Assembly: GCA_018658105.1 (NCBI GenBank) | Contig: JABHVW010000006.1 | Coordinates: 1-54,243 of the forward strand | DNA from: Candidatus Peregrinibacteria bacterium | GTDB taxonomy: Bacteria > Patescibacteriota > Gracilibacteria > UBA1369 > 2-02-FULL-48-14 | DNA length: 54,243 nt | Direction of reading: 5' to 3' | Part shown: piece after piece, positions 24,938 to 30,479 of the stretch | Layout of the letters: every line of letters starts with the position of its first letter | Numbering within the stretch: position 1 is the first letter of the stretch | Made by a program: the position numbers and the translations under genes | Notes under the pieces: model-generated | The model's input: only the letters and a program-made list of their open reading frames with translations | What the model was told of the DNA's origin: nothing | Databases searched by the model: none

Positions 24938-26290
24938 TTGTCTGCGGTAATTGCATTAGTTGGAAGACCAAACACTGGTAAATCGACATTATTTAATAGA
25001 TTGATTGGGAAAAGAAAGGCTATTGAGTCAAATATTCCTGGCACAACTAGAGATAGACTTTACGAATCTTTCTTTTATGCTGGCCATAAAACTTTGCTCG
25101 TTGATACAGGTGGAATTGAGCTTGATAACACTGGTGATATTGAGGCAGATGTTCAAGAGCAGTCTAAACTTGCGATTGAAGGTGCTGATTTAATTTTCTT
25201 TTTAGTTGATGTAAAAGAGGAGCTTACTTCTGAGGATTTTCATGCTGCAGATTTATTGAGACGTTCAAAGAAGCCGGTGATTTTAATTGCAAATAAATGT
25301 GATAACCCTAGTTTGGGAGATGATCGCTTTAATCTTTATGAATTAGGATTTGGCGAACCAATTGCTGTTAGTGCATTACATGCTGGCGGATTGGATCATT
25401 TGGAGAAATTGACTAATAAAGAACTGGAGACTTTGGGTCTTCCTGCTGATGACAGCGAAAATGATGAATTTAAAGATCATATTAAAATTGCATTTTTAGG
25501 GCGGCCAAATGTTGGTAAATCTACAATGGTTAATGCTCTTTTTGGGAAGAAACGTGTAGTTGTTTCAGATGTACCTGGCACCACGAGGGATGCTGCTGAA
25601 GTTCCATTTGTTTATGATGACAAAGACTATTTATTGATCGATACTGCGGGTGTTAGAAGGAGAGGGAAGATTGAAAAGGGAATTGAAAAGTATAGTATTT
25701 TAAGAACGATGCAGTCTATTTCACAGGCTGATGTTTGTGTATTGATGCTTGATTTTGAAACTGGAATTGCGAATCAAGATTGTCATGTGAGCCAATATAT
25801 TTTGGAGGAAAGGAAGGGTTTGATTATTGTGGTAAATAAAGTGGATTTAGAATCTGGTGATATCAGGGAGTCATTAACAAATAATTTTATTGGAAAATTG
25901 AAACACAGAATGGCATATGTACCTTGGGCACCTGTCGTTTTTAGTTCAGCAAAAGAGAGGAAAAATATTTTTCAGATATTGAATTTAGCTGCTGAAATCT
26001 CAAATGAACGTGTAAAAGAAGTTTCTCAAGAAGATTTAAATGTTTGGCTGGATATTGTATTAACAAAACATCCGCCACGAGGAAGGAAGGGTAAAAGGGA
26101 GTTTTCTGTTTTAAGTGTTAAGCAGATTGGTTCTGGGCCGCCAAGTTTTGAGTTTGAATGTGTATGGCCTGAAATTATGCACTTTTCATATGCAAGATTC
26201 CTTGAAAATGAGCTTAGATCTCAATTTGGTTTTACTGGTACGCCGGTTCATTTGAAATTCAAGAAAGCGAAATTTAAAGCAATTCGTTAA
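24938..26290 (+). CDS. der: Ribosome-assembly GTPase Der (EngA)
   Basis: This 450-residue GTPase for 50S subunit assembly has two consecutive G domains: GRPNTGKS near residue 9 with NKCD, and GRPNVGKS near 190 with NKVD, then a KH-like domain. Both P-loops and both DTxG motifs (DTGG, DTAG) are intact. The start is TTG at 24938; no in-frame ATG lies upstream before a stop, and the TTG directly precedes the conserved VIALVGRPNTGKS. The 3' end overlaps a convergent gene by 17 bp. Confidence 0.96.
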   Translation: MSAVIALVGRPNTGKSTLFNRLIGKRKAIESNIPGTTRDRLYESFFYAGHKTLLVDTGGIELDNTGDIEADVQEQSKLAIEGADLIFFLVDVKEELTSEDFHAADLLRRSKKPVILIANKCDNPSLGDDRFNLYELGFGEPIAVSALHAGGLDHLEKLTNKELETLGLPADDSENDEFKDHIKIAFLGRPNVGKSTMVNALFGKKRVVVSDVPGTTRDAAEVPFVYDDKDYLLIDTAGVRRRGKIEKGIEKYSILRTMQSISQADVCVLMLDFETGIANQDCHVSQYILEERKGLIIVVNKVDLESGDIRESLTNNFIGKLKHRMAYVPWAPVVFSSAKERKNIFQILNLAAEISNERVKEVSQEDLNVWLDIVLTKHPPRGRKGKREFSVLSVKQIGSGPPSFEFECVWPEIMHFSYARFLENELRSQFGFTGTPVHLKFKKAKFKAIR

Positions 26291-27197
26291 GTTTTTTCGC
26301 CCAATCTTTTCTTAAGTCTAATCGTCTATCTCGGTCGTGAAATTTTAATATTGTATCGCTAATAATTGTTCCACTTTGATCAGATAATAGTTTGTATTTT
26401 TCTTCTGCACGATTTTTTTGCCATTTTTTAAAAGTATTTTCCCAAGCATTGCTAGCGAATAACTTTTCGATTCTTTCTTTCCATTTCTCAGCTTTTTCTG
26501 ACCTTCTTCTGAAGAATCTGCGTTTTGAAGTTATAGTTGTGAAATATGATTCCAGCCAGTTTTCGTTTGCTAAAAGCAGTTCTTCATATGTTTCGTAATT
26601 TCCAGCCACTGGCTCAAGAGTTTTGAGCCAATATGCAAGGTAAATGTCATAAGGTTTGTGCGCCATATCTTCAAAGTTCATTGCATCTTCTGAAATGTAA
26701 AAGCTTAAGCAGAAGCGCTTTTTAGTCTTATTGCCGTGTCTTCTTACTCCAAGAATACTTGTGAACAATGTTAAGAAAAATCTTGCTGTAAACATTTTGT
26801 TTTTTTCTGTAATCACGAGGAGATCGATATCGCTTTTGAAATCTACATTTGAAATTGGCGTGCTATTGCAAACGGCGACTAACTTTATGAATGGGCAGAA
26901 TGAAAATAAGAAATTATATTTATTCACTTTCTTCCAATATTCTTTGGTTCTTTTTCTTTTTTGTTTGAATTCTTCATAGAGTTTTTCATCGCCTTTTATT
27001 GAATAATATCCGTCATAAAAACTAATTAATGGACTCTCTTTCAAATAAATGTCTATCTTTCTTTCATCTGCAGTTGCGAAAAATAAATGCTCGCTAATTT
27101 CGGCTCGAGTAAGCGGGATGCTAAATAAATCGAAGTATGCAAGCGTGGCAATTACAGCTTGTTTTACAGTTAAAGATTTAGGGAAAATATCATTCAT
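26274..27197 (-). CDS. Nucleotidyltransferase-fold protein with N-terminal winged-helix-like region
   Basis: This 307-residue protein has an N-terminal part (about 1-75) that looks like a winged helix (IPLTRAEISEHL, SFYDGYYSIKG), followed by a pol-beta-type nucleotidyltransferase core with FKSDIDLLVITE, a D-x-D metal pair. The glycine-serine of the GS motif is changed to NVD. The C-terminal half is helical and very basic. Function is unknown. Such stand-alone proteins occur in Patescibacteria. It is divergent from uvrC with 40 bp between the starts. Confidence 0.65.
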   Translation of the reverse strand: MNDIFPKSLTVKQAVIATLAYFDLFSIPLTRAEISEHLFFATADERKIDIYLKESPLISFYDGYYSIKGDEKLYEEFKQKRKRTKEYWKKVNKYNFLFSFCPFIKLVAVCNSTPISNVDFKSDIDLLVITEKNKMFTARFFLTLFTSILGVRRHGNKTKKRFCLSFYISEDAMNFEDMAHKPYDIYLAYWLKTLEPVAGNYETYEELLLANENWLESYFTTITSKRRFFRRRSEKAEKWKERIEKLFASNAWENTFKKWQKNRAEEKYKLLSDQSGTIISDTILKFHDRDRRLDLRKDWAKKLNELL

Positions 27198-27199
27198 AT

Positions 27200-27228
27200 T
27201 TGATCTGCTTGAGGAATGAGCTTACCAT
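27200..27228 (+). promoter_or_regulatory. Probable near-leaderless promoter for uvrC
   Basis: TTGATC (27200-27205), 17-bp spacer, TACCAT (27223-27228). The -10 match is moderate. The ATG of uvrC lies 9 nt after the -10 box, leaving at most a few bases of leader. Confidence 0.4.
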
Positions 27229-27237
27229 GAGAATGTT

Positions 27238-29547
27238 ATGGGAAAAAGCTCCATTCAATCATTGCTGAAAAATTTGCCAAGCACACCTGGCGTATATCGT
27301 TTTAAAAATGATGAAGGCACTGTGCTCTATGTTGGTAAGGCTAAGAATTTAAAAAACCGTGTTCGGTCATATTTTCAAAAACAAAATAATAGACCAATTC
27401 GTACGCAAAAGCTGATTGAAAAAACTATAGATTTGGAGTGGACTGAGGTTGGAAGTGACATTGAGGCGATTTTTTTAGAAACGAATTTAATTAAAGAATT
27501 AAGGCCGAAATATAATGTTTTAATGAAGGATGATAAGAACTGGGTTTACATTAAAATTACAAAAGATGAATTGTTTCCGCGCATTAAAATTGTTAGAAAA
27601 GTTGAGAATGATAAGGCAAGATATTTTGGGCCATCAACTGCTGCCGGAAAGTTAAAAAAGACTCTTCTTTTGTTGCAAAAATTATTTATGTATAGAACTT
27701 GTGATCTTGGCATTGATTGGAGGAATGATGAGGCGAAAATTACTAAAAAAACAATTGCCTTTCCTTGTCTTGATTACCATATTAAGAGATGTGCTGGCCC
27801 TTGTATTTCTAAAATTTCACCAGAAGAATATGGCGAATCGATACGTAAAATCGAATTATTTTTGGAGGGAAAAACTTCAGAAATTGAAGGTAAATTGAAG
27901 AAACAAATGGCCGACTGTGTTGCGAAGAAAGCATATGAAAAAGCAGGTATTCTTCGGGACAAACTTCAAGCGATTGATGGCTTGATCCAGAAGCAATTGG
28001 TCACCTCTGCTGACCATAGCACTATGGATGTTTTGGCCTTCACTCTGAATGAAGGAAAGGCTTATTTCACTTTATTTGCACTTAGAGACGGTAAGCTTTT
28101 AAAACAGGAGAATTTTGTATTAAGCGCCTCTGGTTTCGAAAGTGGTGATGAAGATATGGCTCCTGAAGTTCTTGAGACATTCTTATTCCAATATTACTCA
28201 AAAGCTGCAGATATTCCGCCACAAATTTTTGTTCCAGCTGGCCTACCTGAAATGGATTTATTTCATGATTGGATTAAGGATCGAGCGGGCAAAGTTGTAA
28301 AATTAAAAACACCTCAGAAGGGTAAAAAGCATAAACTCTTAGATCTTGCGAAGAAAAATGCTTTGAGCTTTCAGAAGCAGCAAATTGCAAGGTGGGCTGG
28401 TTTTGAAGAGGACGATATGGAGTCATTAGAGGAATTAGCGAGAGTTCTTGAGATGAAAAAGAAACCCAAAAGGATTGAGGCTTATGATATTTCACACTTA
28501 GGAGGTACCGATACTGTCGCCTCAATGGTTGTATTTGAAAATGGCAAATCCAAAAAATCTGATTATAGAAAATTTCGTTTAAGAACTCTTGAGGAAGGGG
28601 AGATTGATGATTTTAAATCGATGACTGAGATTCTAAAAAGAAGGCTTAGATATATTTCAGTTTTGCCAAAGGGTGTAACTGTTCGAAAAGCAACTAAGTC
28701 GCGCACCAAAGATATCGATGAATTAAGAGGTGAGTGGCATGATGTTGAGAGTGATGTGGGCGAAACTTTCAGTGAATATTTTGTGGCATTTTTCGAGAAA
28801 AAGGTTGTGGGAATTATGAGAATGACTCCAGGTAAAGATGGTAAATTTTTAATGAGATCTTTGTACGTTAAGCATGAGCATAGGGGCTCTGGTATTGCTT
28901 ATGGGTTGATGGCATACGCCAGTAAAAAGTTGAAAGCTAAGCGTGTTTACCTTTCTTGTTTTGATCACATGAAAGATTTTTATGAAAATTTTGGTTTTGA
29001 TTTGGTTAAATCTATTCCAAAAGAATTTACAGATTTATATCTTGATGTTTTGATCGCTGAAAATCCTGATGAAAATATGAATTTCTATGCCTTTGATCCA
29101 AAGAAGAATTATGACGCATCTTTTAAGACAAAACCTGATTTACTTTTAATTGATGGTGGCAAGGGTCAGCTGAGCTCAGCAAAAAAAGCTTTAGACTATT
29201 TTGGGCTTGAGATTCCTATGATTTCTCTTGCAAAGAGGGAAGAGGAAATTTTTCTTCCTGGAAAATCTTTACCTTTGTTAATTCCAGTTGACTCAAAGGC
29301 TTCTAAACTTTTGCAAAGGTTAAGGAATGAAGCGCATAGATTTGCAATTTCATTTCAAAAGAAATCCAGAAAAAAACATTTAACTTCTTCTGTTTTAGAT
29401 AAAATTGATGGCTTGGGTGAAAAGATGAAGCTTAAACTTCTAAAAGAGTTCACTTCTCCTAAGCAAGTTTTTTTAGCTTCTGAGGAATCTTTGGCTGCTA
29501 TTGTAGGGCCGAAATTAGCAAAAGCAATTAAGTCCTATGAAGCTTAG
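27238..29547 (+). CDS. uvrC: UvrC excinuclease with an inserted GNAT acetyltransferase domain
   Basis: This 769-residue protein is UvrC, the nuclease that makes both cuts in nucleotide excision repair. It has the GIY-YIG domain (about 12-95; GVYRF, VLYVGKAKNLKNRVRSYF), the UVR motif region (about 195-235), the RNase-H-like nuclease (D417 in AYDISH, D639 in LIDGGKGQL, RNEAHRFA) and C-terminal helix-hairpin-helix motifs. It is about 150 residues longer than usual because a GNAT fold (about 478-620; VRKATKSRTKD, MRSLYVKHEHRGSGIAYGL, FYENFGFDL) sits between RRLRY and PDLLLIDGG inside the nuclease domain. All nuclease residues remain, so both activities are plausible. No frameshift is seen at the joins. 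Confidence 0.92.
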   Translation: MGKSSIQSLLKNLPSTPGVYRFKNDEGTVLYVGKAKNLKNRVRSYFQKQNNRPIRTQKLIEKTIDLEWTEVGSDIEAIFLETNLIKELRPKYNVLMKDDKNWVYIKITKDELFPRIKIVRKVENDKARYFGPSTAAGKLKKTLLLLQKLFMYRTCDLGIDWRNDEAKITKKTIAFPCLDYHIKRCAGPCISKISPEEYGESIRKIELFLEGKTSEIEGKLKKQMADCVAKKAYEKAGILRDKLQAIDGLIQKQLVTSADHSTMDVLAFTLNEGKAYFTLFALRDGKLLKQENFVLSASGFESGDEDMAPEVLETFLFQYYSKAADIPPQIFVPAGLPEMDLFHDWIKDRAGKVVKLKTPQKGKKHKLLDLAKKNALSFQKQQIARWAGFEEDDMESLEELARVLEMKKKPKRIEAYDISHLGGTDTVASMVVFENGKSKKSDYRKFRLRTLEEGEIDDFKSMTEILKRRLRYISVLPKGVTVRKATKSRTKDIDELRGEWHDVESDVGETFSEYFVAFFEKKVVGIMRMTPGKDGKFLMRSLYVKHEHRGSGIAYGLMAYASKKLKAKRVYLSCFDHMKDFYENFGFDLVKSIPKEFTDLYLDVLIAENPDENMNFYAFDPKKNYDASFKTKPDLLLIDGGKGQLSSAKKALDYFGLEIPMISLAKREEEIFLPGKSLPLLIPVDSKASKLLQRLRNEAHRFAISFQKKSRKKHLTSSVLDKIDGLGEKMKLKLLKEFTSPKQVFLASEESLAAIVGPKLAKAIKSYEA

Positions 29548-30479
29548 TTAGAGTATGTTTCGGTTTCGTGATGAGCTGCAGCCCATGAGAACCAAAAGCT
29601 GTAAACAGGATAAATGTTTTCACCTGTGTCTTCTCTTTGGATATGAATTTCTTGAGTGTCTGCGTCGAAATCAATATTTAAACTTACATCTGCAAGTGTG
29701 TCAGTGAAATTTCCACCTTGAAGGTTTTCAATGAGGTAAGCTTTGAATTTCCCATCGACTTCTATTCCGTAAACTGGTGCTTTTGAGTGGTAAAGATTGT
29801 TTTGCAAGCTAACTGGGAAATATAGATTTTCTGTTAATTCGTATGAATCATAAGGTGTGCTTGTGTAGTTTCTATCAAAACCAGTTTCTCTTGAAAGAAC
29901 TTCTCCATTTGGGTGAGCTGCCTTCCAATCTTTCCAACGTAAGTTCTGATGTGGAAGTAATTCTAAGCTTGCACCTGTCATTTCGCCAACGATTGCTTCG
30001 CCTAATATTTGTGACCAATATGAATCTGTTTGTCTGTCGTACATTACTAGGTTTGACTCCCATAATTTTCCGCTAGTTCCAAATTCTGAAGTTTCGCCAT
30101 TAACTGTTGGGTCAAATACAATTCCGCTCCCGCAAAGAGGGCAATATGTGATTAATGCGTCTTGGCTGCCGATTGTGTCATTTACAATTTCGTGCCAAAC
30201 CAAAATTTGAAATGGGTAAAATCGATCAACTCCGTCGAATGAAACTGCTAAACCAATTCCGTCATCTTCTAAAAATACCTCTGCATCGGCAACTGATGTA
30301 AATTCTGGTTCATCTATTGATGGGATTCCGTCTTTTGGAGGCCCTCCGCTAAGTATGTCTTCTAAAGGGACGCTGTGTTTTTGGTCGTCAGTCGTCATTT
30401 GACCTGTAGTTTCAGCTACATTTTGTGAGCATGCGCTTAAGAGAATGCTCATCATTAATATTAGTGCGATTTTTTTCAT
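29544..30479 (-). CDS. DUF3179 domain lipoprotein
   Basis: This 311-residue protein has a lipoprotein signal (lipobox LLSAC, Cys about residue 17), then a DUF3179 domain: FYPFQILVWHEIVND, LITYCPLCGSGIVFD and YDRQTDSYWSQILGEAI. The CPLC motif in this domain could bind metal or form a disulfide. Family function is unknown. The gene converges on uvrC with a 4-bp overlap. The tRNA-Leu lies just upstream on the same strand. Confidence 0.85.
   Translation of the reverse strand: MKKIALILMMSILLSACSQNVAETTGQMTTDDQKHSVPLEDILSGGPPKDGIPSIDEPEFTSVADAEVFLEDDGIGLAVSFDGVDRFYPFQILVWHEIVNDTIGSQDALITYCPLCGSGIVFDPTVNGETSEFGTSGKLWESNLVMYDRQTDSYWSQILGEAIVGEMTGASLELLPHQNLRWKDWKAAHPNGEVLSRETGFDRNYTSTPYDSYELTENLYFPVSLQNNLYHSKAPVYGIEVDGKFKAYLIENLQGGNFTDTLADVSLNIDFDADTQEIHIQREDTGENIYPVYSFWFSWAAAHHETETYSN

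Follow-up and report, generated by a model that had tools for sequence, protein, structure and literature searches.

A GNAT domain nested in the 5'-incision nuclease of UvrC in Candidatus Peregrinibacteria and related bacteria

The DNA-repair nuclease UvrC is widely conserved. Known UvrC proteins (NCBIfam TIGR00194) have in common with the one described here all domains, their order and the invariant residues, and nearly all of those sampled from other bacteria carry a short loop ahead of the DGG strand of the RNase H-like nuclease domain; the best structural matches of our predicted model are UvrC of T. maritima (C-terminal half, 2NRT/2NRZ) and of D. radiodurans (8b0q). In the window (the whole 54,243-nucleotide stretch of Candidatus Peregrinibacteria DNA analysed here), UvrC instead holds a GNAT domain of about 150–165 residues at that very place, inside the RNase H-like domain. 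The insert shares motif A, the tyrosine and the predicted fold of GNAT acetyltransferases (PF13508, PF00583).

The uvrC reading frame is uninterrupted over its entire length and constitutes a single intact ORF, whose product scores far above the equivalog cut-off of TIGR00194 (285.45 bits; NCBIfam scan) and is thus a member of the UvrC family; GIY-YIG, UVR, RNase H-like (PF22920/PF08459) and helix-hairpin-helix (HhH) domains follow one another as expected of UvrC (Table 1). The RNase H parts comprise residues 263–378 and 402 onward, and the PF08459 match is split at profile position 70 into two pieces lying 453 nt apart, both over the cut-off and in one frame with no stops. An alignment of the window UvrC with 26 insert-free UvrC of other phyla and one insert-bearing relative shows P14, Y20, Y31, G33, R41, E81 and N93 of the GIY-YIG part to be invariant, as are D417, D458, D639 and H700 of the RNase H part, which bears out the earlier claim, made from the sequence alone, that the nuclease residues are kept in frame around the insert. 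We take the catalytic roles of Y31, R41, E81, N93, D417, D458, D639 and H700 from what is known of the family. The 1.12 Mb genome also encodes UvrA and UvrB, so that the repair pathway is present. The product of the window gene is a normal and probably active UvrC with both nucleases, the UVR motif and the HhH domain. Genes scanned in its neighbourhood include Der-type and Obg GTPases, a DsbA-like protein and peptidyl-tRNA hydrolase. A 307-aa ORF adjoining uvrC (26274–27197, minus strand) has no Pfam match at E 1e-4, and on the other side a DUF3179 protein (E 9.1e-83; 29544–30479, minus strand) is convergent, its stop and the uvrC end overlapping by 4 nt.

Table 1. Features of the uvrC gene and its nested domain, in positions of the window
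Feature	Position	Strand	Residues, match or remark
uvrC with nested GNAT domain	27238..29547	+	769 aa + stop; TIGR00194 524.6 bits
GIY-YIG nuclease domain, 3' incision	27289..27516	+	residues 18-93; PF01541 E 1e-11
UVR motif, UvrB-interaction element	27892..27978	+	residues 219-247; PF02151 E 1.1e-4
UvrC RNase H-like domain, preceding part	28024..28371	+	residues 263-378; PF22920 E 1.2e-27
5'-incision RNase H-like domain, first half, with D417 and D458	28441..28653	+	PF08459 profile 2-70
Inserted GNAT domain and conserved tail (D626, S628, P633)	28645..29136	+	about residues 470-633
GNAT motif A, R549-A554 (RGSGIA; Q/R-x-x-G-x-G/A), expected acetyl-CoA pyrophosphate loop	28882..28899	+	sequence
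Y582, expected GNAT general-acid tyrosine	28981..28983	+	Tyr in 85/101 homologous inserts; role inferred from family
RNase H-like domain, second half, with D639 (IDGG) and H700	29107..29349	+	PF08459 profile 70-159
Helix-hairpin-helix DNA-binding domain	29392..29532	+	residues 719-765; PF14520 E 2.4e-6

Taken by itself (28654–29106, 151 residues), the insert matches three GNAT families over their cut-offs: PF13508 Acetyltransf_7 (46.9 bits against 27, E 3.7e-12), PF00583 Acetyltransf_1 (40.7 against 20.7, E 3.2e-10) and PF13673 (33.4 against 23.6). Run against the PDB, a profile built from 17 inserts retrieves 56 sequences, every one of them an acetyltransferase (3d8p ranking first, E 4.9e-9). 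Computed from the insert and one relative, the insert-alone AlphaFold2 model is of modest confidence overall (mean pLDDT 57.7), with a moderately confident core, and its strand/helix order, E-H-E-E-E-H-E-H, is that of GNAT proteins; with this confidence in mind, every match listed by Foldseek has the GNAT fold (3e0k ahead of the others, E 2.8e-5), and VIA-align likewise gives GNAT-fold matches with Z up to 12.2 over 104 residues at an rmsd of 3.1. In the full-length model, for which only two alignment rows carry the insert, its pLDDT is about 30–55 and its placement is not usable. The sequence-only reading, which had proposed a GNAT acetyltransferase nested within the nuclease domain on the strength of the motifs VKHEHRGSGIAYGL and FYENFGF, both found in the window UvrC, is thus upheld by the split PF08459 match, the Pfam scores and the predicted fold alike; it had the location right, but the span it gave (28672–29100) is slightly short, since relatives place the boundaries at about 28645–29136. 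The RNase H helix that ends at R469 is followed by a surface loop, which leads into the D639 strand and holds a complete GNAT domain. As we presume from the fold of RNase H, this loop lies at the start of the D639 strand and clear of the catalytic metals, and would tolerate insertions for that reason. Codon usage deviates somewhat more in the insert than in the body (0.558 versus 0.445 +- 0.047), which could be explained by its different amino-acid make-up and is not evidence of recent transfer.

The same insert is widespread among relatives and is not limited to this assembly. In a survey of 353 genomes of the class, each of the 82 UvrC-positive genomes from the order to which the window belongs has an enlarged loop, 75 of them with split PF08459 hits and seven with bridged hits (single matches of 756–849 nt for a 477-nt domain). 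A homologous insert of at least 84 aa is present in 101 of the 118 UvrC read, from 26 families, although this is not an unbiased frequency, the 118 having mostly been chosen with a profile of insert-bearing proteins. The GNAT E-values and this recurrence in many relatives together exclude chance. By comparison, the 61 loops measured in UvrC of other bacteria have a median length of 19 aa, and all but one, of 91 aa, are at most 41 aa long. Families f18, f20 and f21 mostly give an unbroken domain hit; their UvrC frames contain many in-frame TGA codons, and TGA is thus probably read as sense. When TGA is read as glycine, the UvrC at L349 and L350 (genomes G122 and G121) have a short loop at the GNAT site and a long low-complexity stretch after the GQLSSA helix. 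A scan of genome contigs for close relatives with the window protein found nothing, while a degenerate contig scan returned UvrC from many phyla and one insert-bearing relative, Ca. Peregrinibacteria bacterium RIFCSPLOWO2_01_FULL_48_20 (record MFXB01000044.1, locus L041), which is of the family of the window organism; viral contigs and phage records held no relatives of the insert at the limits used. Two Patescibacteria genomes with GNAT hits in long ORFs (G571 and G638) were rejected as further cases, the UvrC signature being absent.

On a UvrC-body tree built without the insert, the presence of the main insert type requires seven changes, five of them within the class, and early gain with later losses is the simplest reading of this history. 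Two of the 101 homologous inserts come from a small other class of the phylum (family f52); since these UvrC bodies fall outside the class and their inserts among the main type, transfer of the insert or of the gene between classes is possible. The loop also has other occupants. Family f33 forms a clade of 12 on the body tree (support 100), placed among insert-bearing families, some deeper forks being weak; seven of its 12 loops are short and three hold another type of GNAT, while a further GNAT occupies the loop of G333, and that of G330 (L177) has, in the position of the GNAT insert, a nuclease-like DUF559 domain (PF04480, E 9.5e-35). In this last protein, SPHPDPLPEGEG after DUF559 resembles a translated repeat, and the GNAT of G333 (L215), with the motif QRGKGLG, does not group clearly with either the f33 or the main type. 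Elsewhere, a 320-aa UvrC loop (L183, G010) apparently consists of two tandem GNAT-like units, only the first of which is over the Pfam cut-offs. In a tree of 65 GNAT domains, whose deep forks are weak, the f33 type stands apart from the main type, and the GNAT of one f33 UvrC (G319) is joined, with support 84, to that from an isoleucyl-tRNA synthetase (IleRS). Three genomes of the class have IleRS ORFs with a GNAT after the CWFESG region (L339, 551–5965, plus strand; L340, 1106–5575, minus; L341, 1083–5300, minus); those of L339 and L341 additionally hold a histidine phosphatase domain (His_Phos_1), and that of L339 also a MuF_C match. We tentatively put forward, as an idea that has rather less than even chances, that small accessory domains (several GNAT lineages, DUF559 nuclease-like, histidine phosphatase and MuF-type) repeatedly enter surface loops of housekeeping enzymes in frame in these genome-reduced bacteria, that they land time and again in the UvrC loop, that UvrC and IleRS share one GNAT lineage, and that some landed domains, as in the window, may stay very long and be co-opted.

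Conservation within the 101 homologous inserts is strongest in the C-terminal half of the domain and in the tail that rejoins UvrC: P633 is present in all, G586 in 98, Y571, F587 and P594 in 95 each and D626 and S628 in 94, against 69 for R549 of the CoA loop. The window copy has an intact-looking loop. A loose form of this motif, [RQ]xxxx[GAS], is found in 70 inserts, 67 of which have the tyrosine as well; a strict glycine at motif position 4 is kept in only 12, the usual form being RGxKLG, and the loop is lost in 31, these calls resting on one multiple alignment. On the body tree, the distribution of intact and lost loops requires about 18 changes. Some homologous inserts are reduced to 84–93 aa and some loops to stubs of 28–30 aa, such as those of two f31 genomes, which have similar tails with DVSL or DRSF ahead of the PDL of the next strand. 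In close pairs, dN/dS of the insert ranges from 0.04 to 0.30, mostly above that of the body and far below 1, no ratio being given for pairs with saturated synonymous sites; the insert is thus translated and under purifying selection. Pairs lacking the CoA loop give 0.077 (L018/L023), 0.25 (L009/L020) and 0.18 (L165/L171). That two thirds of the inserts have both loop and tyrosine suggests that CoA binding matters where it is kept, and it probably persists in most lineages, including that of the window.

What keeps the domain in place is open to several readings. An artefact or spliced element (mis-assembly, intron or intein) has nothing in its favour: junctions are identical across many independent assemblies, GC content is 0.353 in the insert and 0.357 in the body, no Rfam match lies in 27000–29800 and no intein family appears in the Pfam and NCBIfam scans of UvrC. 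Because the insert recurs across genera, families and one other class, we reject this origin, which is extremely improbable. The domain might also be a mobile accessory that landed in a permissive loop, is nearly neutral there and slowly erodes; the eroded inserts and stubs, the other domains in the same loop in f33 and the f33-type GNAT inside IleRS would fit, but a dN/dS far below 1, even in pairs without the CoA loop, and a loop enlarged in every UvrC-positive genome of the order speak against it and make it quite improbable.

The sequence-only reading had suggested that the domain acetylates repair partners or senses acetyl-CoA, which is supported only in part; the window copy does have the loop and the tyrosine. 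An active acetyltransferase that tunes incision by modifying UvrA, UvrB or UvrC itself would be in keeping with these residues, with their retention in two thirds of the homologues, with the predicted GNAT fold and with purifying selection; yet the loop was lost many times, in several cases with the remaining domain still constrained, about a third of the homologues are unlikely to act in this manner, and the substrate is purely hypothetical. We consider this account unlikely. A sensor, in which CoA binding without catalysis would shift UvrC activity with the energy state of the cell, could draw on the loop arginine of most inserts together with the loose conservation of motif position 4; repeated loss of the loop and a purely hypothetical coupling between GNAT and nuclease leave it improbable. 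Loss in 31 of 101 inserts, about 18 changes on the tree and shrunken or stub inserts mean that acetyl transfer cannot be the general reason for retention, and we conclude that the common denominator would rather be structure or contacts. The explanation we favour, and hold to be reasonably likely, is that an ancient GNAT domain occupies a permissive surface loop of UvrC, has been retained mainly for a structural or interaction role, and is probably still acetyl-CoA-competent in the window organism. It would have been gained early in the lineage and mostly inherited, and would now persist chiefly in a structural or protein-contact capacity, because conservation is highest in its C-terminal half and tail. 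The insert of the window organism still binds acetyl-CoA with fair likelihood; that it acts as an acetyltransferase is doubtful, and a repair-specific substrate (UvrA, UvrB or UvrC itself) is a guess with rather little chance of being right.

Natural variants of this enzyme domain, nested lineage-wide in the 5'-incision nuclease of UvrC, range from intact through eroded and stub forms to loops that hold another domain instead. They offer ready comparisons for asking whether the binding of acetyl-CoA, or acetylation, is relevant to nucleotide excision repair in bacteria, and also inform how core enzymes acquire nested domains. In the open-access literature (subscription papers and preprints lay outside the search), we found no publication that brings UvrC and GNAT together in this way; the one presenting the group's first complete genomes mentions genes of DNA repair and does not name Uvr proteins (PMC4736985). 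In comparison with usual GNAT acetyltransferases, the insert is nested in a nuclease domain and not free-standing, its motif is often RGxKLG, a long extra C-terminal tail rejoins UvrC, and about a third of the family have lost the CoA loop. A GNAT on a housekeeping enzyme has a curated precedent in NCBIfam NF040702 (isoleucine--tRNA ligase with an N-acetyltransferase domain), so attachment to IleRS is not unprecedented, although the host enzyme differs from UvrC and the IleRS seen here, at about 245 bits, fall far below its cut-off of 1999 bits. A parallel in kind is found in the lineage-specific insertion domains BEAN and HABAS of RNA polymerase, which are polyphyletic and lie in frame in a core enzyme (PMC11515920); like the UvrC insert they are lineage-specific in-frame insertions, but they are not GNAT domains and reside in another host protein.
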